Assembly (NCBI RefSeq): GCF_954871325.1
Contig: NC_088777.1
Span: forward strand, 45,857,366-45,921,365
Reading direction: 5' to 3'
From: Gordionus sp. m RMFG-2023
Taxonomy: Eukaryota > Nematomorpha > Gordioida > Chordodea > Parachordodidae
DNA length: 64,000 nt
Positions 5,185 through 64,000 of the stretch are shown here, one piece after another; position 1 is the first letter of the stretch, and every line of letters starts with the position of its first letter. The notes under the pieces are model-generated. The model was not told where the DNA came from, made no database searches, and was given only the letters and a program-made list of their open reading frames with translations. The translations under genes and the position numbers were made by a program.

Positions 5185-6795
5185 ATGCATGAGCAACTGT
5201 GTATGTTAACTTTTCTAATAAAATTGAACTTGGTCTTTCCATTTTCATCTCAGGAATATAATTTAGTTACAGATTCTGAAAGTAAATTATAAAAAAAATT
5301 TATATTCAAAATAGTTAAATATTGACTAAATATATATTTTATAAGACTAATAATTTAATAATTTAAAAAAAATAACGTTATTGCAGAATTACTTTCTGTT
5401 GTGATCATAGCAAGACATGGAGCTAAATACGAAAAGTCAGAATTGAGTCCACCAAATTTTCGCAATTACACGTCGCACATCGGCGAGTATGGTAAAATAT
5501 CGCGCAAAGGTTATAAAGACAGTTTCGACTTGTGAAAGTTTATTATGAATAGATACTACAAAGGAGCAGATTTGTTAAATGATTTATTGCAGTTTAGTTT
5601 TTATTCCGATAACACAGATGAAACGAAACTAAGTTTAGAAGCGTCTTTGTTAGGTCTGCCATCGGATCATCTAAATAGCATGGGATTAGGAGAATTAAAC
5701 GCATCCTATTTTAAAGGCAGAAATATTTTGCTAAACCATCTGAAGCAATCAAATGGAATGCTGGGTAAAAAAATAGATAATAATAATAACTCAAGAGAGA
5801 ATGTTTTCGGAGAGAAGAATTTTCATGTTGAAATGAACATTTCACATGTGTTTAAACTTATGATAGGTTTAAATAGGATTATCGTTAATAATAGTTGTTA
5901 TATAACGAACATTTATGCAAAGATAATAACCCGACCCTTTTTCTTCAGACAAAAAAAGCTAGAACAATAAAACAAAGTCAATCACAAAAAAGAACACTAG
6001 GGTTATTCGGTTATGAATCATAATAATTCAAAATATATTTTGGATCTGACATCATTAAGACTTGCCCTTGAGCAATCAGGATTTAAAAGTGATGCATTGA
6101 ATAATTCGCTTCAATTTTTAAGAATTTTACCTAATATATTGGATTCTATTGTAGCTATAATGGAAAATGGATATCATTTGCCAACCTGGGCCAGTGATCA
6201 AATAATGGTCATGTTAGATGCATATGAGAAAATAATGCATATTGCAATCATCAACGGGAACACTTTCTTGCAGGAGAAGATGGGCGGAGAGCTGCTTAAC
6301 CACATTAAAAAACATTTCGCGGATGTTTTATTAGAAGATTCTTTATATTTTAAAAACCATTTTTTAAACGAGTATTTTAGTGAAAAGGCAGAGCGAACGA
6401 CCTTAAAAATGTACATAGGACATGAATACAATTTGGTGGCCCTGATAAATTTATTGGGTGGAAGTTGTATGGCTAAAGCTAAGGAATCATCAGCCATAAT
6501 AGTAGAATTATATCGTGCTTCCGTTTTGAACAATATTTCATATAATATTTTTTTGAATGACGATATCTTCACTTCCATTTTGTTAATGAACAATTCGTTA
6601 TTATCAACTACGGTAAATCTTTTCAAATTTTATAAGTTAATCGACCAAGAGAATAGAGAATATATTTACAAATTAAAATTTTTTTACAAAGCTGGACCTA
6701 ATAGTAATTTAACCCCATTGAGAGGAGATGCAAAATTTGAAGAGTTATTATCTTTAGATACGAATTATTTTAAATACTATAATTGTCTAGATTAG
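5185..6795 (+). pseudogene. Histidine acid phosphatase pseudogene, copy A (secreted, insect venom-type-like)
   Basis: Exon 1 (5185-5281) encodes a signal-peptide-like start and ends in phase 1 at GAAA|GTAAAT. A 105-bp GT-AG intron follows. Exon 2 starts at 5387 after TTGCAG. It carries the catalytic RHG (5413-5421, ARHGA), a segment resembling the family's G-x-F-x-x-x-R-Y helix, the N-G-Y-H-L-P-T-W-A motif (about 6170), and the second catalytic site as H-E-Y-N (6421). It ends with SSAIIVELYR and a C-terminal FFYKAGP block. Lesions: TGA at 5533-5535 where C and D have GGT; a 1-nt loss near 5895; and another frame change near 6010. After that the frame stays open for 260 codons (6013-6795). Members of the family remove phosphate from phosphomonoesters through a phospho-histidine. 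This copy cannot encode the whole enzyme as written. Confidence 0.85.
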
Positions 6796-19339: not shown

Positions 19340-19725
19340 ATCTAATTCTAGCCCAAACCCTAATAACCCTAATCTTAACATAGCCATAACCCTAGCTTTA
19401 ACTCTATAATACTAACCCCCTAATTTAACCCTAACGGTAACCTTAACCGTAACTACTAACCATACCCTAACTCTAACCCTAACTATACTCTAAACCAGAC
19501 CCTCACCCAACCCTGATCCTGACCCTAATCTTAATCCTAACCATAACACTAACTAACTCTAACCCTAACGCTAACTCTAGCCCTAAGCTAAACCCTACCC
19601 TAAACTTAGCCCTAATCCTAAAGCTAACGTTAACCCTAACCGTAACTCCTAACCCTGATCTTAACATTAACCCTAATTCTAATCCTAAAGCTAGCTCTAA
19701 CTCCAACCCTAATCCTAACATAGTA
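19340..19725. repeat. Degenerate CCCTAA (telomere-like) interstitial repeat
   Basis: About 380 bp of imperfect CCCTAA and CCTAA-type units, strongly strand-biased (C-rich on plus). Variants such as 'accctaac', 'atcctaac' and 'gctctaac' occur throughout. The reverse-strand ORF at 19503-19721 is only the translation of this repeat. It may be a relic of telomeric sequence or an unrelated satellite. The 6-bp register is TTAGGG-like rather than the common insect TTAGG. Confidence 0.85.
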
Positions 19726-20279: not shown

Positions 20280-21200
20280 AGTAAATATTTGTGTTTTGCA
20301 TTATAATTTATGATTAGGAAAATAGTTTAGGGTATTTAGATATTTGTCAAACTTTTTAATATTCTTTTATCCAATTATTCTAAAAAAAACGACTCAATTA
20401 AATTTTAAATTAAGTTGAATATATTTATTTAATAAAATTTAAAGCTTCGTAAAATATGTGTGACATGTTTTAGATTTATACAGATTTCAATTACCAATTT
20501 TTTTCTTCTTGCAACCCAGTTCACTGAATTGTTCAGGAACGAAATTAATTAAATATGCCTTACACATTATACCTTTGACAGTATATTAAGTTTAATCTTA
20601 TATAAATATTTATCCTTATTTTATATAGATGTGAATGCCTCTTTGTAAATTAGAACCGGCATTAAAGAATAAATCCGATTCAACAGAACTCGGGTAAATT
20701 GAACACGGATAGAAATTTTCTGGATTATTATAAAAAAATTTTGGACTAGACTCGAAAATTTGAAAAGATTTTAAAGTATTTCGTTTTCCAAATGTTTCTA
20801 TAAATACTATTTAAGAATAATAATAAATATAGGTTTATAATATCTTTCAAAGCTCATAATTTTTTCGATTTCAATGGGTCGGACGAGGAAATATAGATAT
20901 CTAATAGAAATAAAGATTATAAACCATCAACATTTATTCTAAATATATGAGCAAGTCTCAGAGATAGATACATTTGAATCATTTGGAGAATATTATTATA
21001 CTTCATATAGATAGAATGTTCTTGGTTAATGGAATATGAAAATCGGAAAAGTATATATCTGGCTGATGAAATATTAGAGATAAGGCTGTTCCATTAAACA
21101 CAAATGTAGAGGATAGTAGATTATGTTTAGATTTATGTCTGAGTTAGAGGTTAATATTATAAAATTTCTTACTATAAAGAGATTCATACTTATAAATGTT
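20280..21200 (+). repeat. Left arm of a diverged inverted duplication (partner 26325-27085)
   Basis: Reverse-complement similarity to 26325-27085 runs through many landmarks: 'tgcattataatttatgatta', 'aaacgactcaat', 'agttgaatata', 'gttttagattta', 'ggtcggac', 'gctgttccat', 'gagttagaggttaatatt' and 'agagattcatac'. Over about 45 codons (20735-20870) both arms hold one frame without indels (for example FKNNNKYR...FKA.N). The ancestor may therefore have been coding. This arm has about 150 bp extra near 20910-21070. Confidence 0.75.
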
Positions 21201-21414
21201 AAAAGCTTATTTAGCAATTAGAATATTTGAGAGAAATAAAAGTCTAATTATCTAGCAAAACATATTAATGTTAGTTAACCATTCTAGTTTTATAATCAAA
21301 GATTGAAAATGTTAGCACATGTTCCTACAGGTTACTAACTGTTAATGCTGGAATAATTTTATGCAATATTTATTCAAAGCATGTGTAAACATACATTAAT
21401 AATTATTAGGCACG

Positions 21415-21930
21415 AGAATTTATTTTTTAGAAGCCGGTCTGATCCGGTCTATTTAATATTATAATCTTAAATTTTGGTTCTATATAGTTATATTCGCTTT
21501 TGAAAGAAAAACCGAAAATATAAACGGCAAAGTGAATCTTTTATTTAATTGGCATTACTTTCGAAAGGAAAGTTGTCGGGCTTAATGAAATCCAATTGAC
21601 CAATAGTCTTCCTCCAGCCATAATAAATTTTTTGAAAATAGATCCGATCCTGACTTATGTCTATCGATTCTTAAAAAATGGATCGAATTGGGAAATTTAT
21701 TTGTTTATACTCTAAATACAATTCAATATAAAAGATTTGTGGATGCTGATGATTCCACACGTCCATGATTTTATATTTGCCTAAGGATTGCAAAGGCGAC
21801 CTAACTATGGACGATTGTGAAATCTGCTATATGAATTAAATAAACTGCATTTAATTCTTGAACATTTGTAAAATATAGAAGTAAAAAAACATATTAGGAT
21901 ACTTTTTTAAAAATATGATTATACTTATTT
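21415..21930 (+). pseudogene. Partial duplicate of the SIBD-like gene (intron 1 end, exon 2, intron 2)
   Basis: Direct repeat of 23515-24060, about 2.1 kb upstream. It carries the same intron block ('aaatataaacggcaaagtgaatctt', 'cttaatgaaatccaattga', 'gatccgatcctgactta') and a decayed exon 2. The exon keeps DADDS and PKDCKGDLTMDDC but has a TGA, a frame shift and a loss of the CGCC motif (21743-21838). No exon 3 follows. It is a dead fragment produced by a local duplication. Confidence 0.75.
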
Positions 21931-22433
21931 AATTGTTAAATATAATTAGAGAGTTATAACTTTATATAATTCCTTAATTGCTATATAAAAATATTTCCAT
22001 TTTTACCTCAAGGACATATTTTTTTTTCCATAATTTAAATAAAGATACAGATACAGATACAATAGAATTTTATTCGAAAATAAAATTTGAAGATAAAAAC
22101 GTTTACAAAAATAAAATAAACTGTAGCTCAATGCACCAACTAACCCCGGTCTTTTCTATTTTGCAGGAATTTTACCCATTTTGACCTTTCTCGTTTTTTA
22201 TTAAAAAATTGATTTATCTAATCCTATATTAAATATCCTCGTCACAATAACATTTATATTTCAAACATTGTTATCAAACTCGAATTATATAGGCATTGTC
22301 ATCTTCAGAATTTTAAAAGAAAGGAACAAAATACTCAAAACATTTATAATACTAGCAATGGTTAAAAACGTCCTTGGAAAGTTTTTTAAATTTTATTTTA
22401 ATTTCATTAAAAAAAAATTTTTCTTAAAAAAAT

Positions 22434-24220
22434 ATGGAATTAGCTGTAAAATTGTGTTTTGGAGTTGTATTGGTTTTATTCAATTCTAATAGGTAAGTTT
22501 GATAATGCGATATAAATTTTCTTGCATATTTTAAAGCATTTTCAGTCAAGTTTTTTTTAAAAATATTTTAATTAATTAAATAGAGAAATATTCATCGTCA
22601 AAATCAACTAAGTTAAATTTATAAAACTTTTTAATATTTTCATTCATTTGTGATTGTGACAAAATTACCAAAATCATATTTTCATAACTCCTTATATATC
22701 TATTATTTTTGTATATGTGAAAAATAGTTAAATATAAAGATAAATATATCCATATTTTCTTTTGAATAAAATATAAGAATCCCAAGAAAATTTTATACAA
22801 AAAAATATTTCATGGAATGTGTACGAACAAATTAAAGCTCATTCTCACATTTCACTAGGGTTCTTTTTTTAGTTTAATATTAATAGACATATAATTTTTG
22901 ACAATTATGAAAGAATCTATCTTCCATAGGTTAGAAAACTCTTCATTTTGAACAAAAAGTTCAAAAGACGCTATCCAATAAAAGAAACGGTTATAGGATT
23001 AAGTCCAATAAAATAATCATTCAGCCTTCTCTCTGTTCCAATATCTATTTAAATCTTCTTTTTATTCTCGAAAAATATAAAAATTAAGCGAGATTCAAAA
23101 ATAAATTCATTCATTATAAATAATTACAATAATATTTGAATTAATTATTTACATTTTAAAAAATCAACCTCTCTATTCTCAGATCTTTTGTTGTTCTTCT
23201 TGCAAAATGAAGAAATTCCTCCTTCATGATTGGTGTTATCGAGGAACTTAATTTAGCCGATTTAAGAAAAACGGGGAAATCTAGATTTTATTCAAAAATA
23301 ATATTTTAATCAAGGCCTCGATAATACATCATATTTATGGCACGGGGAAGAAAGGTTTGGCCTCCTCTCTTGATCAAATTTCGAGGCTTATGTAATAATT
23401 TTTTGGCTAAAATATTGTTCATTTGTGAATAATTTGTAGAAACCCGTTCCGATATTATTAATATTCTGCTTTTGTAATCAATATTATTTCAGAAACTTGC
23501 AAAAAAATTGTTAGGTCCAGCTTAGTGCCGATTTTTCAGAATGTTGCCCATCCGGCCCGGTCCTATTTTTTATAATATTATCAGCTTAAATTTTGGTTCT
23601 ATAACAGTTATATTCGTTTTTGAAAATGAAAATCGAAAATATAAACGGCAAAGTGAATCTTTAATAATTCATCAAATTTTAAAATTAAGCGGGCTTAATG
23701 AAATCCAATTGATCAACTGTCTTTCTCCATCTAAAATACATTTTTCGAAAATAGATCCGATCCTGACTTATATCAATAATTAAAAAATTGATCGAATAGA
23801 AAAAAAAATTTTTATACTTTAAAAACAAAATTTAATATAAAAGATTGGTGAATGCTGATGATTCCTATTGTCTTTGTAGCAAGCCCAAGGATTGCAAAGG
23901 CGACCTAATTTTGGACGAATGTGGATGCTGCCATGTTTGCTCGAAAGTATCTTGAATTAAATAAACTACATTTAATTCTTGAGCATATGTAGAATGTAAA
24001 AGTATAAGAAAATATTTGGTTGATTATTTTTTTATATGATTATACTTATTTATTCTTTGAATATACTTAGGTGAAAGGCGAAGTGTGTTGGGGGCCATAT
24101 GGTATTTTGAGTAAATGTTCTAGTGGCTTAATATGTATACTAGATAACTACGAGAACCATCTTCTAGCAAAAGGGATATGCACACCGGATTACCCAAGAG
24201 TTATTTTCAATCGTTTTTAA
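22434..24220 (+). CDS. Small secreted cysteine-rich protein with a single IGFBP-type domain (SIBD-like), three exons
   Basis: Exon 1 is 22434-22492: ATG, signal-peptide core LCFGVVLVLF, donor AG|GTAAGT, phase 2. Exon 2 is 23844-23946, after AAAAG, ending TCGAAA|GTATCT in phase 0. Exon 3 is 24071-24220, after ATACTTAG, ending TAA. All three junctions keep one frame, giving 103 residues. The likely signal cleavage is after LVNA. The mature part begins DDSYCLC and carries C-x-C, K-D-C-K-G-D-L and the diagnostic D-E-C-G-C-C-x-x-C at the end of exon 2. Exon 3 adds GEVCWGPYGILSKCSSGLIC and GICTPD. This is the layout of the N-terminal IGF-binding-protein domain and of arthropod single-domain SIBD proteins, which are secreted and linked to growth signalling or immunity. 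The function here is not shown. Intron 1 (about 1.35 kb) contains part of a repeat. No poly(A) site or promoter was assigned. Confidence 0.75.
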
Positions 24221-24239: not shown

Positions 24240-26320
24240 TTGTTAGAAAGGCCTGAATTTAGTGAAGCAAGAAAAAAAAATTATATCCTCCCATACACAA
24301 TAAGCAGCGGCGTGACTGGCAAGGGCTAGTTCCCTCTACTCCCATTACAATGTCCAAATTATAAGAGTTATCAATGCAAGCGTGCATTAGCGTAACCTGA
24401 AAGAGGTGAATTCCCTTATTCGTAAATTTGTCTGTTTTTGTTAAAATCATTTTAAAAGCTTATGAAAAAATATATATTTTAGTGTAATCCTGCGAAAGGA
24501 TTTGGAATAGGAGATCTAAAACGATTCTGTAATTTATAGTGAAAATTCCCACTCAATTAACCCCCCCCCCCTCCTATGAAATCATTAAAATCAATAGTGA
24601 ATGGATATTAAAAGGAATTATAAAAGCAAAAAAGCAAAAAAACAAAAAAATTAATCTTGAAATTATATTTCAAAGGGAATATATTTTATGATTAAAATCT
24701 CTTCTTGTATTTTTGTTTTAATGTTTATTAGAAAAATAATGATAATTTTGATTCATTAATTTTTTAAACATCATCATCAGTTAAATTGAAACCTTCTCGA
24801 AAGTAATAATAATTTTATTTTCCCTTATAAAATATTTAATTAGTATTGAATGTTTAACTTTAAAAACGATTTTAAAAGATTTTTAATGAACAATATTTAA
24901 TGTTTCGGTTATAAAAAAATAACAGAAATATTATATATATCAAACAGCTTTATTTTTTAAAAATAAACCTTGGCATACCCATAATGATCCGAATATTTTG
25001 TAACCAAATATTTTAAATCACCATTATTATTTATAAAAATTGAAAATATAATATATTCTAAATAATATAAAGATTTTAAGGCCCGGCCAGAAAATATAAA
25101 ACCCGAACCGGGCCGGTCCGAAGATAAGGATGATCCGTAGATTCGAGCCGGGCTATGCAATTGGCACTTTTTGCAGATCTCTGATATTATATTTACTAAG
25201 ATTTTTTTAATGAAGTAGTCACTAAAAAGATGTGTACAAAAAAAAGTAATATAATAAAAGTCAATTACTAAATAACTTCTATTAAAAATGTATCATTATA
25301 AAAGGGGAGTGGATACCACCATTTCTTTAAACAGATTTTCTGTCTTAGATGGAAACCCTCAAAGTTATTTTTTTTAGAGGCTTTTAATTTATTGAAAAGC
25401 GCCATCCACAAAGATTCCTAATGTAATAACTTATGCCGTAAAAATTACATTTTTAAGGTCAAAAATTTGCCTTTTTTTAACTTGGTGAAGGAAATTTATT
25501 AGGGTGGAGAAAGAAAGGGAAAATATTTGTCCAAAACTTAAGTATGTTAGCGAAAAGATGATAAAATTAATATATAGCAGGAGATTATTTTCCTTATTCT
25601 AGTGTATATTATAAATTTTGAACCTTGAGTTTGAAAGCTTTTTTTATACATGGATTGCTGGTCAAAAAAAATTGATTTTGCAGTTATAATCTGTACACTC
25701 AAAATTTTCAAAAATTAAATTAAAGTACAAGTCAAATAAATTTTTCTTTTAATGATATTTAAAAAAATAAATTATCATTACTAGGAGGAAGGAGATCCAT
25801 GTGGTGAAGGTTATATGCAAGTGCTTAATATTATTAATGTATGTATATCCACAAGCTTTGAATAAATATTGTATAAAACTATTCCAGCAGTTTTATTCAG
25901 TTTTTTCAGTTGTAGGATTTTCAATCTTTGGTTATAAATAATTTTAACTATAATGGTTTTTTTTTATTTTAAATATTTTAGAAGTTTTATTTAAGTAACA
26001 AATTTTCACAAATTTTTCATTTACGAATTATAATTAAAAATATATATATAAAAAATCTAATGATATATAAAAAATGAATTAAAAAATATGTATGCATAAA
26101 TGAGAAATGGGATAAAAAAAATTATAAAATGGTTAACTATAATTAATATGTTTTGCCAGATAATTAGACGTTTGTTCCACTCAAATATTCTTAATCTCTA
26201 AGTGAGCTTATAACTTTTCGTGCAGATATATTAATATCGATTTTAACCTAGACATCAATGAACCAACCATAAATGCTTGTAAGGAAGATATCATTGGGAT
26301 TTATAATTTAGTTCCATGGG
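24240..26320. other. Non-coding stretch downstream of the SIBD-like gene
   Basis: No gene is supported. A reverse-strand ORF at 24259-24450 (LMHACIDNSYNLDIVMG..) is GC-richer than its surroundings and could be a transposon scrap, but I cannot assign it. A GC-rich patch at 25075-25155 ('aggcccggcc', 'accgggccggtcc', 'gagccgggc') looks like one end of a hAT MITE related in style to that at 60354-60698. No second terminus or TSD is visible. Confidence 0.45.
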
Positions 26321-26324
26321 AAAC

Positions 26325-27085
26325 GTATGAATCTCATTAGTGTAAGAAATTTTAAAATATTAACCTCTAACTTAGGTATAAATATAAACATAATATAGGC
26401 CTCTACATTGTGTATGATGGAACAGCGTTACCAATAATATTTTATCTACCAAAGATATATAGATATCTATATTACCTAGTCCGACCCATTGAAATCTAAT
26501 AATATTATAAGCTTTGAAAGCGATTATAGACCTATATTTATTATTATTCTTAAAAGTATTCATAGAAAGATATGGAAAAACGAAATAATTTAAAATTTCG
26601 TCCAGTTTTTGAGTCTGATCCAAATTTTTTTATGATAATTCGAGAAAATAATCCGTGTTTGACTTACCCGAGTTAGATTGAATCCGATTTAGACCGGTCA
26701 ATGTGGGTTCTAATTTGTAAAGATTTGTAAAAATGCCCTTATATCTCTATAAAATATGGCCAATATTTATATAATATTAAACTTATTACTGTCTAAGGTA
26801 TACTGTGCCAGGCATATTTAATTAATATCGTTCCGGAGTAATTCAGTAAACTGGGTTGCAAGAAAAAAAAAATCTATATAAATCTAAAACGTGTCATGGT
26901 ATTTTATGAAGCTTTATATTTTAAATAATATATTCAACTTAATACCCTCAGAATTTTAGTTTGATTGAGTCGTTTTTTTATAATAATGTCCAAAGACCCT
27001 CAACTATTTGACTATTTGCCGAATTCTCCCCATTTCTCGATAAAAATTTTTAATCATAAATTATAATGCAAAAGACAAATAATAG
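26325..27085 (-). repeat. Right arm of the inverted duplication (partner 20280-21200)
   Basis: Reverse-complement partner of 20280-21200. The reverse-strand ORF at 26372-26623 (83 codons, KLDEILNYFVFPYL.., NNNKYRSIIAFKAYN) lies inside it. A second reverse ORF (27061-27243, LTGFKISDMLTIESHSVSYR..) abuts it upstream and looks compositionally like coding sequence. I do not recognise either protein, and both may be fragments of one decayed gene. Confidence 0.7.
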
Positions 27086-27259: not shown

Positions 27260-29092
27260 GCCTCTCCGATTTTTATGACATTTGATAAAATGCTGTTTAG
27301 AATTGGAAAAAAAAGACAATAATATTTCCAATGTGATATTAGGGCATATGAGATTTAGAGAGAATATATTTATTTAAATAATAATATTTTTATGCATCAC
27401 TATATTTAGACCCCAGATATCAAATCTTATTAACTATTGATCAGGAATAGGTTGCTAGAGCTCCTTTAACGGAATTTTGGGGAAAACATAAATCATAAAT
27501 GATTCAAATTAGCTCATCATTAGAAATAAAAACGACACAAAGGTTACGTAAAATTGCCTACAATCCACAAGATAGCTTTTCCAAACATGATAGAATATAT
27601 TTCCTAGAAAAATACGATTTTTAAATTTTTAAAAACGCGCTCAAAAAATTATTTAAAATTGTATAAAAAATAACACATTGGTTATATATTATAATTATAA
27701 TAAATTATTTTTATGGCAGTACTAATTATAATAAAAAAAATTTAAAAAAATAATGTTTTTGTTATTTTATCTAAATTTTATAAGTCATTATTTTACTGGT
27801 CTCCAAAGCTTGAACACACCTGAACCCAACCGGGTTCAGAGATTTTTTTACTAAACTCTGACCCATGCCCGAACCTATTTTTTTTAGAAGAAGAACTCAC
27901 AGCCATGAAAATAATGCAATCATAATTTATAGATACGAAAGATTTAAGAATAATCATCTTGATATTAAACTGGATTATTATTGTAATAATGGTATAAAAG
28001 TATTTTTTTCTTCTTCAATTTTAAAATCGGTTCAAATTTGTTACCATTGTCTGACAGTAATATTATTTTATAACTATAAAAATCTTTAACTTCAATCGAA
28101 ATTTTGGAAGCCTTGAAATATAAAACTTTTTTTTATATTCAAGATGTCTTATTTTCATGATTGATAAATTGATTTTTTTAAATAATATTTATTTAATATA
28201 TTTTACCGTCAATGTCATTATCATCATGGAATACATTTAATACCTTATTAACATCCTATACAATCAAGAGTAAGAAGTTAAAAATAACGGTGTAACTAAA
28301 TCAATTTAAATTATAGAGAAGCCAAAGGATTACTTAAAGATTTATAAGAAGAAAGGATTTGATTATAATATACACCTCGACATTTCAGAAAAACTCAATA
28401 TAAGACATTTCATATAATTAATTTTAACCAATAAGGGAGAACAGAGCTAGTCGGCCTAAGGGGCTTATCGGCTCAACCGATTTTAATGATACACAAAGAT
28501 ATACGCAAAATTCCAACTAAGAAAATTCATGATTATGAAAATAAATAAAATTGTGTGATAATGATATGTCATCAAGAAAAATAACATGGTTAGAATATAA
28601 TATTTTATAAATTTAATACATAAAATTATAATTATTATATAAATTTATTAATGTAATTTTTCATATATATTTCAATTTTAATAAATAAATATCTTGCAAT
28701 TTGTTGCGATATAGATATTGTGATATCATATTGGCATATTATATGATTAATTTCAAATTATAATTATATTTAATCAATCAATCAATCAGATATGAACATA
28801 TAAAACATTTATTAGTTTGATACTAAGATCAACAATTATTTAAAATGAATTATATTTAATGAACAAAGATTTTCTATCTATAATATCTATTGTAATTGAA
28901 AATATAATACGATTCAAATTATTACCTTTTAATAGATATGAACATTTTAGTTATCAGGATATTATTTTGGCTTGATAATAAGAATCCTACTACAAATTTT
29001 TTAAGACATTATAAAAATATAGATGTGTCAAGATAATAAACAAGTATTTGATAATGAGAAGGAAAATAAAATGTTTGAATATCTAATTTCAT
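27260..29092. other. AT-rich stretch without recognisable genes
   Basis: Nothing supported. The ORF at 27865-28089 follows a small GC-rich patch ('ccaaccgggttcagag') but has no recognisable motif. Confidence 0.45.
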
Positions 29093-30985: not shown

Positions 30986-33900
30986 TTAATTATATTTTAT
31001 TTGAGATTTAAATAATGGAACTAAACGTTTACCGTCGTTATTAAGATATTTATAAAATTCCTGGCATGACATTTTATAATTTTGTTTAACCATTAACTCG
31101 GCCTCTAATGTTGTTAAAGCAATTCGATTTCTCTCCTTTCTCCAGGCAGTCCTCATCAGGCTAAAAATGCGCTCCGATGAGGCATTAGAATGAGGTAAGG
31201 AGAAAACATACTCGCAAATTTTTTCCAAGCATGGGGATTTATCGTTATTACGAAAAAATTCCACCCATTTCTCCTCTGCTTTTAGACTATCTAACTTTAA
31301 GTATTCTGGCGAATCATAAAAAATGGAAAAAATACAATCTCTTCAAACAAGGCTTCAATGTCTATCGGTAATTTTAATATATTTATTAAATTACAGAAAC
31401 CATCAAATGATGGTTTCTGTTCCAAGGTCATAATATTTATACACTTGTAAATAGAGTTATTAAAATCAAATTTTGATTGTAAATATTCCAAAATTGTCTT
31501 AATAAAAATATTTGCTTCATTTAAAAATACGTTAATTATAGTTATATTTGAACATTTTAATATGATATTTTTAGCAATAGCGCTATAAAATTTATTATCT
31601 ATTTTTAACTGTAGAGATGAACAGAGCTGTAGCATAATTTTGTGAATCTTTATCAATAAAGAATCTTCTGATTGCAACTGTAACTACATGAAGTAGATTT
31701 CCTACATGTGAAACTAATCCTAAATATGCTTCTGACATTTCATCTTCGAAAAAATTTAAATTTTTCAAAATTTTTGGACAGCTTTTAAAATCTTTATTTA
31801 AGAAGTATTTCTTTAAGGGTTCATAAAATTTTTCTCTCGATGGCAGGTATTAATGATAACCACCTGATAGGTACATATCGCAACAACTCACACCATTCCA
31901 AATCAGACCACTCCACTAATTCTTTTAATTCAGTGACTCTTTTAGTTGATGAACTAAATTCGTTAAAACATTTCATCACAATTATTTCGACATCTACAGA
32001 TAGTGCATTCATTGCCTTCTTGCAAGAATTATGCAGTATATGGCATATACAGCCAATTGGTATTAATTCACTATTGTGCTGCCTCAATTCGGTAAATACA
32101 CTTTGATTTTTGCCAAAATTAACAGAGGCATTAAGCGCAGAAAGCTGACATGCAACTCATTGATAACCCTGAATCAGCTATATTTAGCATTATGTGGTTA
32201 GCTATATCGTTGGATTTTTCACTATCGGATGAAAAAAATTTCAATAGTTTTATAGAAATGCCCTTATTCTTGTTGAAATAGCAAAGAATCAGGGAAAAGT
32301 TTTAATATTTCACTTATTTGATGCATCTGTTAAAATAGCATATGGATGCCCTTCTTTCAAATCGTCTAGAATTGACCTCTTGGATTCAGGTCCTAACACA
32401 TTTGTGATAGCCTTGCTCATTTTTGTCCTACCACAAGTAAAGTTAGCACTTATTTTGGAGTCGTTAAATATTATGGGGAAGAGATTCGACCCACATTGTG
32501 ATGACAGATAGCTCTGTGAATGTTGAACTACATGATATGAATATACAGTTTCCGCAATTGTAGTTGCATCTGTATTATTTTTTGGAGAATATTTTTGTAT
32601 TGCAATAGACGTTGATAGACTCCCCTGTACTGACTTATGCTTTGACGATTTTTGGTGTCGCAAAATATCATATTCCCCCCCCCCATTGTAGTAACTAAAT
32701 ACTGTAAGACATATTCTACATTTAGCATGGCTACCTGTAAGCCTCATCAACCAAACATATTTTTGCTCCCTTATCTTGTTATATTTACATATATATTTTC
32801 TTCTTTTATTGACTTTCTCGGATTATATAGTATATAAAATATAAAAAGATAATCAATTTTGTTAGGATATTTAAAGCAAAATTAATTATCAAAGTGCTAT
32901 TTTATTAAAAAAATGATTTATATGAACTAAAAACATATCCTAATTTTATATGCTTATTTTTAAAAATTATAAGAAATAAATACTATTTTCAGAAAGATCT
33001 CCAGTTTCATCCGAATCGGATATAGACGGCGAATATTTTGGAGACATACGTTTTAAAGCTTTTATTCCTATATAATTATTTTCAAATGTAAATTAAGAAT
33101 ATTTGTCATTAATTTTAATACGATAGTTAAAAATATAGAATGCGCATAATTTTAAAAATTATTTCCTTACTAAATAAATTATTAATATTTGAATGCAAGT
33201 GGAACTTATCTAAGAAAATAAAAATAAAAAAAAATTTCCTAAATATTATACATATTTTATATTTTTATTTATATATACCATGATAGTTATCTTCTAGGTG
33301 AGATTTAGATTGTTTTGAGGTTAAAGCACTAGTTTCCAATACTGATGTTGTTTTTTGGACAATAAAATGTTATAATTAAATATATAAAAAGAAAAATTAT
33401 TTTCAATATAAATTACTTATGTACTATTATATTTTAAAAAATATATTATTAATATTAGAAGTAATATTTTTAAAAATTAGCAATGAAAGTGGAACTTAGA
33501 AAATATTATTATCCTAATCATCTTTAATCTAAGCTTAAGAAATCCTAAATATTATACATATTTTATATTTTTATTTATATATACCATGATAGTCATCTTC
33601 TAGGTGAGATTTAGATTGTTTTGAGGTTAAAACACTAGTTTCCAATACTGATGTTGTTTTTTGGACAATAAAATGTTATAATTAAATATATAAAAAGAAA
33701 AATTATTTTCAATATAAATTACTTATGTACTATTATATTTTAAAAAATTAGCAATGAAAGTGGAACTCATCTTAGAAACTATTATTATCCTAATCATCTT
33801 TAATCTAAGCCTAAGAAATCCTAAATATTATACATATTTTATATTTTTATTTATATATACCATGATAATTATCCTCTAGGTGAGATTTAGATTGCTTTGA

Positions 33901-34181
33901 GGTTAAAGCACTAGTTTCCAATACTGATGTTGTTTTTTGGACAATAAAATGTTATAATTAAATATATAAAAAGAAAAATTATTTTCAATATAAACTGTTT
34001 ATGTACTATTATATATTTATAATTATACATACTATATACATTAATTATACATACCACGAACACGATCACGAAGATGCTTAAGTTCCACCACCTCAGGAAT
34101 CACTGGCACTGATTTCTTGAAGAAATTCTTAATTGATTTTTGTTTCATACCAGTTGAGGTTGTTGAGGTGCCAATATACAT
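30986..34181 (-). pseudogene. hAT transposase gene, multi-exon, decayed
   Basis: Exon 1 is 34181-34055 (MYIGTSTTS..., phase 1 end at G|GTATGT). Three alternative copies of a 63-nt exon follow, then an 84-nt exon (33067-32984, ...SISDSDETGDLSEN, phase 1). The long exon starts at 32812 after GAGAAAG. Every junction is phase 1, so the reading frame is continuous to 32310. The long exon encodes a BED-like zinc finger (C-x2-C...H-x5-H around CRICLTVF and LRHQKSSKHK), then the TDASNK part of the catalytic core. A frame change follows near 32310, and blocks remain open at 32087-31821, 31677-31297 and 31264-30986. The last is the hATC dimerisation domain (SNASSERIFSLMR). The core is broken, so no active enzyme is expected. 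Confidence 0.88.
33279..33923 (-). repeat. Tandem triplication carrying a 63-nt symmetric exon
   Basis: Three direct repeats of about 276-306 bp. Each includes a 63-nt exon flanked by an AG acceptor and GT donor on the minus strand: 33923-33861, 33647-33585 and 33341-33279. The encoded segment begins VLETSALTSKQSKSHLED. Each copy is phase 1 at both ends and a multiple of three, so one, two or three copies can be included without changing the frame. The outer two copies differ at three positions, all synonymous. The middle copy has two amino-acid changes. Confidence 0.85.
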
Positions 34182-34531: not shown

Positions 34532-37188
34532 ACTACTTTTTATGGTTTGTCTGTTAAAAAGGTATTAAAAAAGTTATTTTATTATTAATTACATATTAAT
34601 CACATTGTTAAATAAATTAATAAAAGATTTTTGTATTATATGTAAAGACTTAATTTTCATATTTTGAAGATCGGTTTCAATGCAGAATATTTAAAAGTTG
34701 AACGCATGGGTCCTGTGCCCAAAATATTTTATTTGTTATAATTGTAAATAGAATATTATATAAAATCATTATAGTTATACATGAACTGAAGAATTTTTTT
34801 GTCACATAGGAGGCCTAATAAACCATTTGATTAGACTAGCCCCATCGATGATCCGACTAAACACGGATTGGGGGCTACTGGGTTCAAAAAATCACTTTAA
34901 ACCTATTACAAGTTACCTTAAATATAATAAAAATGCCCTTTACTCTCAATTATATAACTTAACAACCCAAAATAATTCTTTCTAATAATATTAAATAAAT
35001 ACCATTGACCATTAACGACGATCCATATTTAACATAATTATCTTTATTTCCAATAAAACCACACAATCTAACATAAAATATGTAGAAAAATATAACATAA
35101 TATAATTATCCAATTCTTCATTTCTCAAAGGTCCACAGCTGACATCCAAAGGTCCACAGCTGACATCTAATCCAATATCTCTTAATCTCCAACTACGGGT
35201 TTTTCCGAACAATGAAACACACCCCGTGATCCCTATCTCCTCTCCTTCCCCCAAGGAAAACTTAATTCCCCTGTCAGAAAATAACTGACATTTGATGTAT
35301 TATATTAAATTTATTTCTTCTTTTTTTCAACAGCTACAACAAAACCTTTATTAGAAAATAAATTATTAAATATTTAAAGAATATTACAGTGTACATTTAT
35401 AGGTAAGTGTTGAAGGTATCGATCGTTATTTTGCAAGATCTTATTTATATTCGGAGCTATGATTATTGACAAAGATTACGCCGACTAACCCCATTCTCCT
35501 TTATATTCTTTTTTTTTTTTGAATCATAACATTAGAAAACTAATTCATTTATTTTTAATACAAATTTTCCCTGTATATCTAGAGAGTAAAATATTTGTCA
35601 GTCTTAATATATCGTAAAAAAATTTGCTGTATTTTTTTACACGTTTGTTAGTTTAATATTTCTTAAAATATCAATAAAAATTTGACAAAAATCTTTATAA
35701 ATCTCCTTAAGAAAAAATTATGAATATAAAACGTTTTAAAAAAATGTAAGACATTTATAATTTAAGCAATGTTATATAATGATTGATATAGATTAGATAT
35801 CAAAAAAATTTTGATTTTATGATAATTTCAGAAAATATATATTTTAAAAAAAACATTATAGATTAGTTTTTAAAAATTTGCTATGAGAGATGAATCTTCC
35901 AATTCTTATATTTTCATTCAATTTATTTAATTATTTCTAAACATAAAATGATTGATATAAAACTCAATTTCTATTTATACGACCAAGAGGGTTTATAAGA
36001 CATTTATAAAATAAACAGAAATTTAACTCTTTTATTTACAAATAATTTTTTTAAAAAAAAATAGATTTAAGGATATATATATAGAGTAAAATACATATTT
36101 TATAAAATATTATCCTAAAAATTAAAAAAAAAATTTAATTATGTTTATCACCAAAACCTTGATATATACAGGAATTCTCTTTGGTCTATTTAACACGTGA
36201 GCAGTCTAAATAAACAAAGAATATTTTATTTTAACAAAGTTTAGCATGTTAAAAGAATTTAGTATTTAATCTATAGATCATAATTAATTTAGATTATGAG
36301 TATAAGCCGGTGGAATTTATTATACACCAATATTTTTAACCACCTTTTATCTATATATTATAATATCCTAATTTAAGCTTAAATTTTATTCGTATTTTAA
36401 TTTAAAAAAAATGATTTTATTCACTAATTAAAAAAAAATTGATTGACAATAATTTTTTTTCTTTCAAAAAATATCAGATTCGTATTGGCGTTGGATTGCT
36501 CTTGCCAACAACTTAAGATAAAATGTAAAACGCCTCCCCCTACTAATTGCAAGGCAGAGATCATCAAAGATGCCTTTCGTAAAGACGATCCGACACTTTT
36601 AAACTAATTAAGCTAAGGATCGAGTTGGAATTTCTAAACACCCTCCAATCCATTTGTTTCCTCTCAGCAGAATAGCAATGATTTGCGATTAGAAAATTGT
36701 TTTGTCTTACCAATGCAAATATTGAGCAAGAGCAGGTCAATTGACAATTTTACCATGGCCGTTTTCCACGATCTCTTCTAGACTAGAACTAACCCTCAAT
36801 TTTAGGATGGATTGGAAACATATTTCATTTGCATCGATCCTAATGCTCCATCCAACTAAAACACCGATGTTCTCTCACTGGCAGAATCTAATAAAATAAC
36901 CGAATACTGACCCTTACACATTAATACCTATCGCCTGCTCTATTGTAACGTCTATTAATAGCAAAGCTCAATTTTTTTCTAGAAAATTTAGAAGACGGAT
37001 TCACTAAAAGACCGATCCAGCCAATGAATCTCTCTTCCTACGACAAAGGTTTGCTAATAATCTCCCTCCAACTATCTAAGCTTTATTTTTTCCATCGAAT
37101 AATATCCCATACCTCTTCCAACATTCCCCTTCGCCAAATTTTTACAATACAACACTGTTGTACATCTATAAAGAATTTTTTTATCAAG
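34532..37188. other. Intergenic stretch with a GC-richer unclassified segment at 36520-37190
   Basis: 34532-36500 shows no gene. A short tandem 'aaggtccacagctgacatc' is repeated twice at 35129-35167. From about 36520 to 37190 the base composition is more balanced. One plus frame reads through several stops as protein-like sequence (NCKAEIIKDAFRKDDPTLLN, then MAVFHDLF and IDPNAPSN). It could be a decayed transposon or host exon, but I recognise no family. Confidence 0.4.
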
Positions 37189-43321: not shown

Positions 43322-45183
43322 TAGTGTTGTTAAATTGCTTGGTTGGGTCGAATTAGCATGATTTTTGGTTGGGTTTTTGGTCGAAAAAATGAACCAAAAC
43401 CAAAGCAACCAAATTGGTCGACCAGGTCGACCAAATTCATAGACCCGAGCACCGACCCGAGCACAGACCCGAGCATCGACCCAAGCACAGACCCGAGCAC
43501 CGACCCGAGCATAGACCCGAGCACCGACCCAAGCACAGACCTGAGCATCGACCCGAGCACCGACCCGAGCACAGACCCGAGCATCGACCCGAGCACAGAC
43601 CCGAGCACAGACCCAATCACAGACCCGAGCACCGACCCGAGCACAGACCCGAGCATCGACCCGAGCACCGACTCCAAGCACAGACCCGAGCACCGACCCG
43701 AGCACAGACTCGAGCACCGACCCGAGCACAGACCTGAGCACCGACCCAAGCACAGACCCGAGCATCGACCCGAGCACCGACCCGAGCACAGACCCGAGCA
43801 TCGACCCGAGCACCGACCCAAGCACAGACCCGAGCATCGACCCGAGCACAGACTCAAGCACAGACCCGAGCATCGACCCGAGCACAGACCCGAGCACAGA
43901 CCCGAGCACAGACCCGAGCATCGACCCGAGCACCGACCCAAGCACCGACCCGAGCACAGACCCGAGCATCGACCAGAGCACAGATCCGAGCACCAAACCA
44001 AATCAACTTATTTCGTAATGTGGTTACTTCTTAGTGCACTGAAGGATCTTTCTATCGATATATGTGAGCAAAGATCAGCTAGAACTACTCGCTAGAGGGA
44101 TATTTTGGATAAATGTAAAAATATTTTGATGGGAAGGCAATTTTAGGCTATACAATACATTAATTTGTAATATCCATTATCGAATTAGAGTTAAACAACA
44201 AATAAATGCATTTCAGCTTAAAATTAAAGTAGAGTCAACTCCTGAGGTGACTAAAGTCAACTCCTGAGGTGACTTATGTCAACTCCTGAGCCAGCATATC
44301 TAATCTGTTTGAGGCTTAGCCATTTTTTACAACTTTAGGGTAAGAATTAAATCAACATAAATTATCCTCATTTTTCGATGATATATGAATTATAAATATC
44401 TAAAAATCGATAAATTCCTATAATAAATTTTTCACGGTCTTAGAAGGTAATTATTTTGAATTCCATATCAATTATTTAATTAATATGAAATTGAATTACT
44501 CGTCCTCTAATTTTTTTTCAGAATATAAATATACAATTTTTTTAAAAAGACTATTATTGAAATATTCGTCCTCTATGCATAAAATTGAGCAAAACATTAA
44601 CAATAAATTATTATAAGTTGATTTGGTTTGGTGCTCGGATCTGTGCTCTGGTCGATGCTCGGGTCGGTGCTCGGGTCTGTTCTCGGGTCGATGCTCGGGT
44701 CTGTGCTCGGGTCGGTGCTCGGGTCTGTGCTCGGATCGATGCTCGGATCGATGCTCGGGTCTGTACTCGGGTCGGTGCTCGGGTCTGTGCTTGGGTCGGT
44801 GCTCGGGTCAATGCTCGGGTCTGTGCTCGGGTCTGTGCTCGGGTCGGTGCTCGGGTCTGTGCTCGGGTCGGTGCTCGGGTCTGTGCTCGGGTCGATGCTC
44901 GGGTCGGTGCTCGGGTCTGTGCTTAGGTCGATGCTCGGGTCGATGCTCGGGTCTGTGCTCGGGTCGGTGCTCGGGTCGATGCTCGGGTCTGTGCTTGGGT
45001 CGGTGCTTGGGTCGATGCTCGGGTCGGTGCTCGGGTCTGTGCTCGGGTCGATGCTTGGGTCGGTGCTCGGGTCTATAGATTTGGTCGACCAGGTCGACCA
45101 ATTTGGTTGCTTTGGTTTTGGTTCATTTTTTCAACCAAAAACCAGAGTCGTGGTTGTGTAAAACCAGCTAATTAACCACACTA
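43322..45183. mobile_element. Fold-back hAT-like element with inverted minisatellite arms
   Basis: 1862 bp bounded by a perfect ATAATGAG duplication and by TAGTGTTG / TAGTGTGG inverted ends. Each arm begins with a mirrored block ('gaaccaaaaccaaagcaacc', then the tandem 'ggtcgaccaggtcgacc'). It continues as hundreds of bases of a 12-bp GC-rich unit, 'gacccgagcacc' or 'gacccgagcaca'. Left arm: about 43382-44015. Right arm: about 44612-45125, in reverse. The roughly 600-bp loop carries three copies of 'gtcaactcctgag' (44236-44290) and no intact gene. A single strand could fold into a hairpin of about 500-600 bp. The long ORFs seen in several frames on both strands are by-products of a 12-bp unit without stops. 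Confidence 0.92.
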
Positions 45184-52245: not shown

Positions 52246-54258
52246 ATGTTTGTGCAATTATGTATTTTAACTTCTCTGATAAAATTTAACGAGCCTTTTT
52301 CAATGTCATCCCAAAATAATAATCAAGAGGGTGATTCTGAAAGTAAATTATAGAAAATATTTTATGGAGTTTATTATTTTAAAAAAATAAATAACCAACG
52401 TAGATAGAAAAAAGTAAATTTTAAGAAAATAAATGGTAGATTCTTTTTTCAGAAATATATTGCATTAATTTAATCATGTTTCTAAAAAACACATAAAACA
52501 CAGAATTAATTTCAGTAGCGATCATGGCAAGGCATGGAGCTCAATACGAAACGATAGAATTGAATCCACCTAATTTTCTCAATTATACGTCTCACAGCGG
52601 CGAATATGGTAAAATAACACCCAAAGGTTATGAAGACAGTTTCAACTTTGGTAAGTTTATTATGATTAGATACTTCAAGAGAAAGGATTCATTAAAAGAC
52701 TTGTTCCAGTAGGGTTTTATGCCGATGAAACGGAAGAAACTAAGCTAAGTTTAGAAGCTACTCTGTTAGGTTTGCTATCGGAGCATCTCTTCAGCTTGGA
52801 ATTCGGAAAATTAAACGCCTATAATTTTAGAGGATTGAGAAATGTTTTATTACATTATCTCAATATATCTAATGAAATACATAGCCATAATAATAATAAT
52901 AATACTAATTTAAGGTGGGAAGATTTACAAGAGGACACTATACACGTAGAAACGTACCTTATAAATGTGCTTAAACTTATGGTGAGTTTAAAAATAATCG
53001 TCGTTAATAATAGTTTGCTGTATAACAAACAATATTGTCGGGATATTTACCAAAATGTGTTCAATCTGAAAGTAAATTTTGAGACGACAACTATTAGTCA
53101 ACAATTGAAGAAGGATTCAGTCGTGACATTTGATAAAATGGTAAAACCATATTATCCGCAAGAGATAAACCAAACATTATTAAAATATCTAGAATTTGTA
53201 AGTGAAACATTGAATGATTCAAAGAAATTTATAAAAATATAACCGAATATATCTGATTCTATAGTGATCATAAATGAAACTAGACACATGTTCGATTCGA
53301 ATTTTATTTTTGAGACAATAATGGATAATCAACAATTGAAAAATCTTTCGCGGAAGTCATTCGATGAAATAGTAAGACTGTATAAACCAAAAGATATTTT
53401 GAATCTGACATTATTAAGACTCACTCTTGAGCATTTAGGATTTGTAAGTAATTCATTGAAGGATCCAGAGAAATTTATACAGGTATTACCGAATATATCA
53501 GATTCTATATCTGCCATAAAAGAAAATGGGTACCATTTGCCGCCCTGGGCTAATAATCTTGTGATGGTTAATTTAGAGAAGTATAAATATTGGACCACCA
53601 CTGAAATCATCAACGGCGACATTTTTTTGCAAAATAAGATGGGAGGAGAGGTGTTTAATCATATAAAACAACATTTCACAGATGTTATAGCTTCACTAGA
53701 AACATCCGAATATTACAATAGCTATTCATTTTACAAGGATTTTGATGAAATTTATCTGAAAAAGTCTTTGAGAATGTACCAAGTACATGAATACAATCTG
53801 GTGGCTCTAATAAATATATTGGGTGGGAATTGTATAGCTAGACCCAAGGAGTCGTCGGCTATAATAGTAGAGCTATATCGTATTCCTTCATCAAATAAAA
53901 TTGCATATGACACTTTGCTAATAAACAAACTTCAGAAAACTTAGTTTCTAAAATTTTGTCTAACCACAACAATTTATCAACCTTACCTATGATTCATTTT
54001 AAGCCAAAGAGAAATGAAATTATTTATAAATTAAAATTTTTTTACAAAGCAGGGCCTAATAGTGATTTAATCCCTCTGAGAGGTGACGCATATTTTGATG
54101 AGTTGCCATTTTTGGATTGGAATTACATCAAATTTTTACTGTTCAAATTGATATTTTTAAATAAAAATAACCAGCACATGACAGAAATTATACTTATAAA
54201 ATTAAATATATCTAATCATTCTTGTAAATATTTACATGGGATATTAAAAAAATTGTGA
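52246..54258 (+). pseudogene. Histidine acid phosphatase pseudogene, copy C (most diverged, longest open stretch)
   Basis: Exon 1 (52246-52342, 97 nt, phase 1) begins MFVQLCILTSLI. Exon 2 starts at 52504 after ACACAG with ARHGAQYE (RHG at 52530). Relative to the other copies there is a 2-nt deletion just after 52710. The frame from about 52712 to 53944 is then interrupted only once, by TAA at 53240-53242 where the parallel repeat has TTA. An internal 231-bp (77-codon) tandem duplication covers 53078-53530. The motif NGYHLPPWA lies near 53525 and H-E-Y-N at 53786. A second frame change near 53945 precedes the C-terminal block FFYKAGPNSDL (about 54040). A 59-nt GTAAGT...CCAG segment (52651-52709) would restore the first frame if removed. 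Confidence 0.83.
53078..53530 (+). repeat. 231-bp in-frame tandem duplication inside copy C
   Basis: GAGACGACA at 53081 and GAGACAATA at 53312, and SQQLKK at 53096 and NQQLKN at 53327, are each exactly 231 bp apart. The two halves read FDKMVKPYYPQE... and FDEIVRLYKPKD..., both leading to PNISDSI. The copies have diverged strongly, so the duplication is not recent. It is absent from A, B and D. Confidence 0.88.
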
Positions 54259-60192: not shown

Positions 60193-62082
60193 ATGTTTGA
60201 GCAACTGTGCATGTTAACTTTTCTGATAATTTTAAACGTAGCTTTTTCATTGTCACCTCAAGAATATAATTTAGTTAAAGATTCTGAAAGTAAATTATAA
60301 TAGAAATATTTTATTCAAAATTGTTATATATTTATTTAATTTATATTTTATATTAGAGATCTGAAAAGTTAGGCCCAACCGGGCTTCAGCGGGCCTAATT
60401 TATTTAAAATAATCGGGTTCGGGCCGGCCTAATATTTGAAAAAATACGGGCCGGGTCGGGTTGGACCGAAAATTTTATTAGATATATCAAAATTTATCAA
60501 TTTTATATTGAATTTTTTATGTAAATAAAAATGTTTAATTTAATTTATTGAAACTGATAGCTATATAATATATGTTTATTTTAAGTAATTATAAAAATTA
60601 ATTTCTATATTTAAATAAATTGAGCCTGGCCGGGCCGGATAATTTTTTAAAAAATTTTCGGGCCGGCTTGAAAAAATTAGGCCCGATTCAGATCATTATT
60701 TTATATACCTTAATATAATTTAATAATTCTTAAAAAACATTATTGCGAATTACTTTCTGTTGTGGTCATAGCAAGACATGGAGCTAAATATGAAAAGTCA
60801 GAATTGAGTCCAATTAAATTTTCGCAATTATACATCGCGCAGTGACGAGTTTGGTAAAATATCGCGTGGTTATGAAGACAGTTTCGACTTGGGTAAGTTT
60901 ATTATTAATAGATACTTCAAAGGACCAGATTTGTTAAATGATTTGTTGCAGTTTAGTTTTTATTCCGATAACACAGAAGAAACGAAACTAAGTTTAGAAG
61001 CGTCTTGTTAGGTCTGCTATCGGATCAACTAAATGGCATAGGATTAGGATAATTAAAGGCATCCTATTTTAGAGACATGAGAAACATTTTACTAAATCAA
61101 CTAAACCAATCCAAGGGAATATTGAGTAAAAAAATAGTTAATAATAATCACTCAAGAAATGATGTTGGAGAGAATAATATACATGTTGAATTGAACATTT
61201 CACAGATGTTTAAACTTATGATAGGTTTAAACAGAATTGTCGTTGATAATAGGTTGCTATATAACAAACAGCTATGCAAGGATAATAACCCGACCCTTTT
61301 CAGTCCTACGAAAAAAGCTAAAACAATAAACCAACGTCAATCACTATTCGAAGAGAATATAGAACAAAATAATACAAATGATTTTTGGATCTGACATCAT
61401 TACGACATGCCCTTGAGGAATCAGGATTTATAAGTGACGCATTGAATAATTGGCGTCAATTTTTTAGAATGTTACCTAATATATCGGATTCAATTGTGGC
61501 TATAATGGAAAATGGATATCATTTGCTAACCTGGGCCAATGATCACGTAATGGCCATGTTAGAAGTATACGAGAGAATGATGGACTGCAATCATCAATGG
61601 CAACACTTTTCTGCAAACGAAGATGGGCGAAGAGTTTATTAACCATATCAAAAAACATTTCGCGGATGCTTCTAAAAACCATTTTTTAAATGAGGATTTC
61701 AGTAAAGATGCACTGCGAACGACCTTGAAAATGTACATAGGACATGAATACAATTTGGTGGCTTTGATAAATTTATTGAGTGGAAGTTGTATGGCAAAAC
61801 CTAAGGAATCATCAGCCATAATAGTAGAACTATATCGTGCTCCCATTTTAAACAATATTTCATATATAGAGGACGTTATCTTCACTTCCATTTTGCTAAT
61901 GAACAATTCGTTAATATCAACTATGCTAAATATTTTCTTAATTTCTAAATTAATCGACCAAAAGAAGAGAGATAATATTTTCAAATTAAAATTTTTTTAC
62001 AAAGCTGGACCTAATAGTGATTTAACCCCGTTGAGAGGAGACGCAAATTTTGATGAGTTAATATCTATAGATACGAATTATT
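60193..62082 (+). pseudogene. Histidine acid phosphatase pseudogene, copy D
   Basis: Exon 1 (60193-60289, 97 nt, phase 1) keeps a good signal peptide: MFEQLCMLTFLIILNVAFSL. The intron (60290-60747) is enlarged by a 345-bp MITE. The acceptor is damaged: other copies have TTGCAG|AATTAC, this one TTGC-G|AATTAC, losing the AG. In exon 2 an extra base after LSP (about 60810), a lost T in the SLEAS region (about 61005), a stop near 61050 and frame changes at 61382 and near 61615 break the frame. 61623-62082 is open and has H-E-Y-N at 61743, SSAIIVELYR and FFYKAGPNSDL. Its 3' end runs into the assembly gap. Confidence 0.85.
60346..60706. mobile_element. 345-bp hAT MITE (60354-60698) with perfect 8-bp TSD, in the intron of copy D
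   Basis: The duplication TTTTATAT flanks the element at 60346-60353 and 60699-60706. The ends are inverted: TAGAGATCTGAA at the left, and TAATGATCTGAA when the right end is read in reverse. GC-rich subterminal blocks follow (gggccggcc, cgggccgggtcggg / gggccggata, cgggccggc) in an otherwise AT-rich interior. There is no ORF. Units A (5320-5386) and B (11640-11720) lack it, so it inserted after the duplications. Confidence 0.92.
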
Positions 62083-62092
62083 NNNNNNNNNN
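62083..62092. other. Assembly gap (10 N)
   Basis: Ten unresolved bases separate the 3' end of phosphatase copy D from the LINE. The true distance and even the adjacency are unknown. The ORF reading across the gap (61623-62177) is not one protein. Confidence 0.99.
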
Positions 62093-64000
62093 TTTGGTAA
62101 AACTTCTGTATTTAGGCTGGCTTACCATGGCTGAACCTATTATAGATAGCCTTCCATGGCTTCTTAAACTCTTCTAACTGTTAGAACAGACGACATATCT
62201 CTGAACTTCTTCCATGCTTGTCTGACCCTTGCAACAAGAGTTCCACTTTTCCGAAGGTTAACCCATTTCCAATATTCAAACTACCATTTTCTACGTTATC
62301 GGTATATGTACTCCTTTTATGCACGTTCTATAAATAATGGTCATTCTTGCTAACATCAAACCTCCTTTTTCCTGCTACATCTATTATGCACCCATTTCTG
62401 GCATCTGGTGCATTGGATTAAATTTTTTGCAACTCCTTTCCCACATATTCCACATGGCTAGTAGCCAGATTCTACCATCTTCAGATTATCCCCACCAATC
62501 ATAACCTTTGTCTTTGCTGCATTTATTTTCAAGCCCTTTGCTTCCATTTACTAATGTTATCCCACAATTTGTCCTCACTGTTTGCCATTAATACAAGGTC
62601 ATCTGCATATAATAGCTACTAGGAAAGTCCTTCACGCATTTCTCTAGCCATCATCCATTACTAAAAATAATAATGAGCACAGCATATATCCTTGTAATGA
62701 ACTCAGCATGGATCTTTGATGAAGTTCTACCTTCACTTCAAAGCTTACACTATCCTTCATCCGTCTGTACCGCAGTTTGTGCTCCCACATACATTTCTAT
62801 CACTACCATAACAATATAAGGTTATCTGCATAAAGTAGCTCCCATGGAAGTCCTTCACGCATAACCACCACATCCATTAATAAGATAAATAAAAATGGGC
62901 TCAGCATGGATCCTTGATGAAGTCCTACCTTCAATTCAAAGCTTTCATTATCTCCATCAGATGCTTTCTCCAAATAAACAAACGCATAATATAGTTCTTT
63001 TTATTTGCAAGATATCTGTAATTGTCTCACCGCAAAAATTGTATCTGTTGTTCCTTTCCCCGATGTAAAACCAAACTGAATTTCAACAATTATAATTTGT
63101 TCCCTTATCCGGTTCTCTAACACCCTCTCAAATACTTTCATTGCATATGAGTTTAATAGCTCTGTATGACCCTCAATTTAAAAGATAACCTTTCCCCTTG
63201 TATACTGGAATAATTATACACCAATTTTCGGGAATAATTCCTTCTGTCACAATTTGATTAGCTAAATTCATTAACCATTCAATCCCTAAATCATCAGAAC
63301 CTTTAAATATCTCAGTTACCTCCTCGTTAAACCCGCTGCCTTTCCTCTTTTCACTGCTCTCTTAATTTCGACCTTCCCAAATTTACACCTGGACCTTCTA
63401 CCTTTGCACAACTAACATCATTATCATATTTACCTCAGGATAACCACCATGTTTCCTTATGTTTAGGCGGCCCAGTTGTCCATCCACATACCTCCTCAGC
63501 TGTCCTCACACATGCTTTCTTCATGTCCCCCCACTTGTCATTTACCCCAGATGTTTGTGCCACCTCACTCTCTCAACGCCAATAGCATTTTGAATTGACG
63601 CTCCTCCTTCAAATTTCAAACTTTCAGCCTTGGTACAAACTTTCTTGTAGTGATCCTGACACCTTTAAAAGTGAGATCTTCTATAAGTAGTCGATGATGG
63701 TCAATACACTCCTCTCCTGGTATCACTCTCACATTTTTCTGTGCTTCTATCACATCTTCTTACTATCAATACACTCCTCTCCTGGTATCACTTTCACATT
63801 TTTTACTATGTTTCTATCACATCTCTTTACTAACAAATAATCCATTGCACATTTCGCACTACCCGACTTGTAAGTCACCAGGTTCTCCGATTTTTTCTTT
63901 AACATTATATTACAAACAATCATATCCATAGCATCACTAAAATCCTCTTCCCTTCCGGATTTCTCCTGCCGTAACTGAATCCTCCATGTACTCCTTCATA
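62093..64000 (-). mobile_element. RTE-like LINE, reverse strand: endonuclease C-terminus, linker, reverse transcriptase and tail
   Basis: Reading the minus strand from 64000 downward, the decayed frames give the endonuclease end (LLVKRCDRN near 63825), then a linker with CVRTAEEVCGWTTGPPKHKE (63510-63450). The palm domain follows, with YNFCGETITDILQ and the catalytic YADD (62609-62598). A second palm copy at 62832-62821 reads YADN. C-terminal segments resembling CKKFNPMHQMPEMGA (about 62435-62390) and the SDKHGRSSEIC region (about 62225-62185) follow. The palm is partly duplicated in tandem: 62590-62760 and 62815-62960 share 'gaagtcctaccttca', 'ccttcacgcat' and 'ctcagcatggatc'. Stops are frequent and the element continues beyond the window. 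Confidence 0.8.

Follow-up and report, generated by a model that had tools for sequence, protein, structure and literature searches.

A worn copy of a hairworm single-IGFBP-domain gene, probably on its way to becoming a pseudogene

The locus lies on a 54.6 Mb chromosome (C3, 54,603,052 bases) of the hairworm Gordionus sp. m RMFG-2023 (phylum Nematomorpha), which, judging by the name, appears to be the Gordionus montsenyensis of the European Reference Genome Atlas paper (PMC11408602). The window, i.e. the whole stretch of 64,000 nt that was analysed, corresponds to C3:45857366-45921365, and its features are collected in Table 1. An earlier note had proposed an uncatalogued gene of three exons for a secreted, SIBD-like protein with an IGFBP domain and had regarded it as the best candidate for a working gene in the window. 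As it described, the segments 22434-22492, 23844-23946 and 24071-24220, joined across two GT...AG introns of phases 2 and 0, give 312 nt, or 103 codons and a stop. Moreover, the product has an N-terminus that is hydrophobic when read by eye and contains the motifs GEVCWGPYG, CSSGLIC and ECGCCHVC, the last of which represents the GCGCCxxC core of IGFBP in exon 2. Rfam and tRNA scans of the window gave no matches.

Table 1. Features of the locus and its surroundings in window positions
Feature	Positions	Strand	Remarks
Inverted copy of the family's 3' flank	20286..21413	-	matches 25821-27081
Degenerate copy of the stretch from intron 1 to intron 2	21454..21949	+	76% identity to 23573-24070
Broken exon 2 (PKDCKGDLTMDDCEICYM)	21780-21833	+	within the copy at 21454-21949
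Exon 1	22434..22492	+	start codon, hydrophobic signal-peptide-like N-terminus, phase 2 end, GTAAGT donor
Exon 2	23844..23946	+	first part of the IGFBP domain, to CGCCHVCSK
Exon 3	24071..24199	+	second part of the IGFBP domain (VKGEVCWGPY...ICTPDYPR), length of 129 nt shared with relatives
Tail VIFNRF plus stop of the earlier note	24200..24220	+	in relatives intron 3 starts here (donor GTTATTTTCAAT)
Exon 4 remnant, first 12 codons (EEGDPCGEGYMQ)	25785..25820	+	behind a conserved acceptor
Deletion junction	25820..25821	+	about 130-150 bp missing compared with relatives (rest of exon 4, stop, some 3' flank)
Last exon of the listed prediction P0001 (TPDIKSY plus stop)	27410..27433	+	unlike any relative's exon 4
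Exon 2 fragment of another family member	36443..36574	+	cut off before the CGCC motif

A Pfam search with the window product bore out the proposed domain, since IGFBP (PF00219) was matched with 30 bits against a cut-off of 28 (E 7.9e-7); no domain besides PF00219 was found in the product in Pfam. The SIBD-like reading agrees with a PDB sequence match (E 3.5e-4) to SIBD-1 of the spider Cupiennius salei (PDB 3zxb, 3zxc), a protein with a single IGFBP domain that was aligned over residues 30-77. The aligned 78-residue chain of SIBD-1 has no fourth-exon tail, and the window copy lacks one of the cysteines. Weak sequence matches were obtained to the N-domains of IGFBP7 and HTRA1 (E 0.045 and 0.039), which, unlike the window copy, are parts of larger proteins. 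That unrelated open stretches had been joined by chance is practically out of the question: the domain score speaks against it, and it is refuted by relatives at other places in the genome, which have identical exon borders.

These relatives form a family within Gordionus. At E <= 0.001 the first protein search gave three proteins, each of them from Gordionus sp. m RMFG-2023, and the matches listed include 11 Gordionus proteins of this kind, one of them called CCN family member 3-like and several venom protein 302-like. The latter name reflects database naming by similarity and indicates no venom role here. Outside Gordionus, matches came, where named, from amphioxus, a fish, a limpet and a hydroid. 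P0002 and P0003, which are 66% and 54% identical to the window product over about 95% of the query, share with the other Gordionus venom protein 302-like proteins and the window copy the genome, the chromosome and the borders of exons 1-3. The genome was searched with P0002 (52 matches) and P0005 (59 matches), matching exon by exon and leaving weakly scoring exon matches out of the relatives' exon tables. At least 30 exon-2-like places were found, fragments included (27 on C3, two on C5 and one on C1); the count comprises merged rows picked as exon 2 among the best-scoring candidates only and is therefore a lower bound. The broken exon 2 at 21780-21833 of the window comes in addition to these places. 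A whole-genome scan with PF00219 by itself gives no support to the count of 30, as it returned a single place, C3:627151-627351 (34.1 bits); it probably misses the family because an intron splits the domain. At this place, distant from the family, an IGFBP domain lies within a single exon and scores above the Pfam cut-off.

Complete relatives have four exons, and introns 1, 2 and 3 of the window copy lie at the positions common to this Gordionus four-exon SIBD family. In modelled relatives exon 1 has 59 nt, exon 3 has 129 nt and exon 4 has 108 nt plus stop or nearly so; the 59 nt of exon 1 are the same in the window gene and in five modelled relatives. In one copy, at C3:49487916, the stop is missing from its usual place in exon 4. 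The nine aligned relatives all match Pfam IGFBP, and each of them has the 12 cysteines of the domain and the four of the tail. Exon 4 looks as if it repeated the pattern of exon 3 (9/22 identical, E 0.001 in a single comparison), and a similar second unit is present in P0016, a protein outside Gordionus. The predicted model of P0002 (mean pLDDT 80.1, pTM 0.61) best matches IGFBP7, IGFBP-complex and SIBD-1 chains, none of them at E <= 0.001. It superimposes on SIBD-1 (3zxc_B) with a TM of 0.67 by target length and also resembles the IGFBP7 chain of the CD93-IGFBP7 complex.

The relatives change the reading of the 3' end. At 24199/24200 a GT starts intron 3 in 17 of the 17 relatives with an exon 3 match reaching that point; five partial exon 3 matches that end short and two that are probably due to chance were set aside. 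Therefore, the last codons of the frame proposed in the earlier note are read from intron 3, and its stop codon is intron sequence in relatives. The relatives' donors are mostly GTTATT or GTAATC; the window has GTTATTTTCAATCG, which is near the GTTATTTTCAATTG of several relatives. The gene is not a three-exon gene, as relatives have a fourth exon, of which the first 12 of the 36 codons survive downstream. The other 24 codons are gone, and with them three of the four tail cysteines, so that the complete four-cysteine exon 4 is absent. A tblastn search of the window with two tails did not find the rest of exon 4 downstream. At the junction 128 nt are absent compared with the P0002 gene and 152 nt compared with the copy at C3:48411-48412 kb, and beyond it the match resumes in the relatives' 3' flank. 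The change is therefore a deletion, because the downstream sequence is the relatives' own 3' flank, and for the same reason a transposon inserted into exon 4 at 25821 is ruled out. The genome also carries part of this flank (about 163-316 of the 1261-base query) as a dispersed repeat. As it stands, the four-exon frame runs past the remnant into the former 3' flank, ends after VLNIINVCISTSFE with a stop at 25863-25865 and encodes 123 residues in total.

Contrary to the description as uncatalogued, NCBI lists a prediction, P0001, from the same locus with a different splice model. Its exons 1 and 2 and most of its exon 3 are identical to the window, but it cuts 42 nt (GT...AG) out of exon 3 and takes TPDIKSY, which occurs once in the window (27410-27430), as the last exon. 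We consider it very unlikely that this model, with its 42-nt intron and its distant end, is the right one. P0001 is a listed prediction and its pieces stand in order in the window, but it drops 14 residues including two cysteines that are exonic in aligned relatives, and its last exon resembles none of the relatives' fourth exons.

The domain is damaged as well. Exon 2 of the window copy is shorter by 27 nt, in frame, than in all six intact-looking aligned relatives, and this deletion removes one of the first three cysteines. The twelve domain cysteines are invariant in 9/9 aligned relatives, and the window copy is left with 11. In a disulfide-rich domain an odd number of cysteines leaves at least one of them unpaired. 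Because of its 11 instead of 12 cysteines, we class the window copy as a damaged family member and not as a complete SIBD protein. P0002, P0003 and their group have the whole exon 4 and 16 mature cysteines, in contrast to the window copy without 24 of the 36 exon 4 codons and without one domain cysteine.

Decay is seen in other copies of the family, too. Internal stops interrupt exon 3 of the copies at C3:48411, 53442, 53429 and 53451 kb, and the exon 3 frame is broken in the copy at C3:48452 kb. Besides, L034, L035 and L039 (C3:53423175-53426048 and C3:53470252-53472968) represent two recent copies that lie on opposite strands at a distance of about 45 kb; the protein encoded by exon 3 is identical in both, and exon 2 differs. 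Further repeats were observed in the window around the gene. An imperfect TAACCC hexamer array at 19426-19719 (about 50 copies, 66% matches) is telomere-like and chromosome-internal, and a 276-bp unit stands in two tandem copies with 94% matches at 33464-34019. At 43442-45073 a 12-bp unit (GACCCGAGCACC and its complement) is arrayed twice, and the two arrays make up inverted arms of about 300 nt with roughly 600-750 nt between them. Three plus-strand ORFs (5545-6795, 52772-53944 and 61623-62177) are alike by eye (HEYNLVALINLLGG, ESSAIIVELYR); the ORF at 6013 weakly matches His_Phos_2 (PF00328, E 0.032, below the cut-off) and the other two have no match.

The description as a working gene is weakened by the loss of one of the twelve domain cysteines and of most of exon 4. 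Exons 1-3 contain no stop and no frameshifting indel, and as far as the exon 4 acceptor each of the five splice sites is intact. In a neutral simulation the chance of no stop was 0.13-0.30, so that open frames alone are weak evidence of coding. In intron 2, comparison with four near relatives revealed 2-3 non-triplet indels each, i.e. 0.10-0.15 per base difference; by arithmetic, about 23 neutral changes on the branch lead to 2-3 expected frameshifts in exons 1-3. Taken together, the open frames and the intron 2 indels favour coding for much of the branch of the window copy. The codon analysis, which covered nine copies, three of them without a found exon 1, gave a branch omega of 0.46-0.49 against 0.57-0.59 for the family and no sign of relaxation; this branch value was separable neither from 1 (2 delta lnL 2.6 and 2.2) nor from the rest of the family. 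Pairwise omega between the window copy and relatives was 0.47-0.69. Compared with the P0002 gene, identity is 0.88, 0.86 and 0.81 in the three exons and 0.83 in intron 2, i.e. the exons are hardly more conserved than this intron.

It is possible, though rather unlikely, that the window copy is a functional gene whose 3' end is new and shorter and which would encode a truncated SIBD protein with a changed cysteine pattern. Such a gene would either use the exon 4 remnant with the former 3' flank (123 residues) or retain intron 3 (103 residues). The open frames, the intact splice sites and the low point estimate of the branch omega are in line with it, as is the upstream sequence, which is 79% identical to that of the P0002 gene over 173 aligned sites. 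However, an odd number of domain cysteines, a last four-cysteine unit reduced to a single cysteine, an exon conservation barely above that of intron 2 and an omega not separable from 1 speak against it. By its anatomy, family membership and damage, the window copy looks like a worn member of the family and not like a new kind of gene. We prefer to see in it a damaged hairworm gene copy of the small, presumably secreted single-IGFBP-domain (SIBD) type that is probably becoming a pseudogene. The copy was probably coding until recently, since exons 1-3 and the splice sites are intact, and is now losing its function, as the damage in exon 4 and the loss of a cysteine suggest.

By duplication the family has multiplied, mostly along a single chromosome, and copies are being lost through stops, frameshifts and deletions. 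Complete members consist of a probable signal peptide, an IGFBP domain with 12 cysteines that is interrupted by an intron behind CGCCxxCAK, and a four-cysteine tail from exon 4. From the family to which they belong we infer that they are most likely secreted and bind insulin- or IGF-like peptides outside the cell. The window copy would at best yield a shortened, partly misfolded product, with a presumed loss of function. A search of the open-access literature for Nematomorpha together with insulin-like growth factor binding found nothing. There is a slim chance that the hairworm SIBD expansion binds host insulin-like peptides and restrains host growth or reproduction, comparable to the SIBD or IMP-L2-like proteins carried by venomous arthropods; in that case the window copy would be a cast-off member of a fast-changing family involved in host interaction.

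The locus illustrates that a frame readable by eye can overrun a conserved splice donor and that a damaged copy can pass a domain search. The window copy alone matters little. The family, however, clearly exemplifies how a gene for a presumably secreted growth-factor-binding domain duplicates and decays in a parasitic phylum with few genomes.
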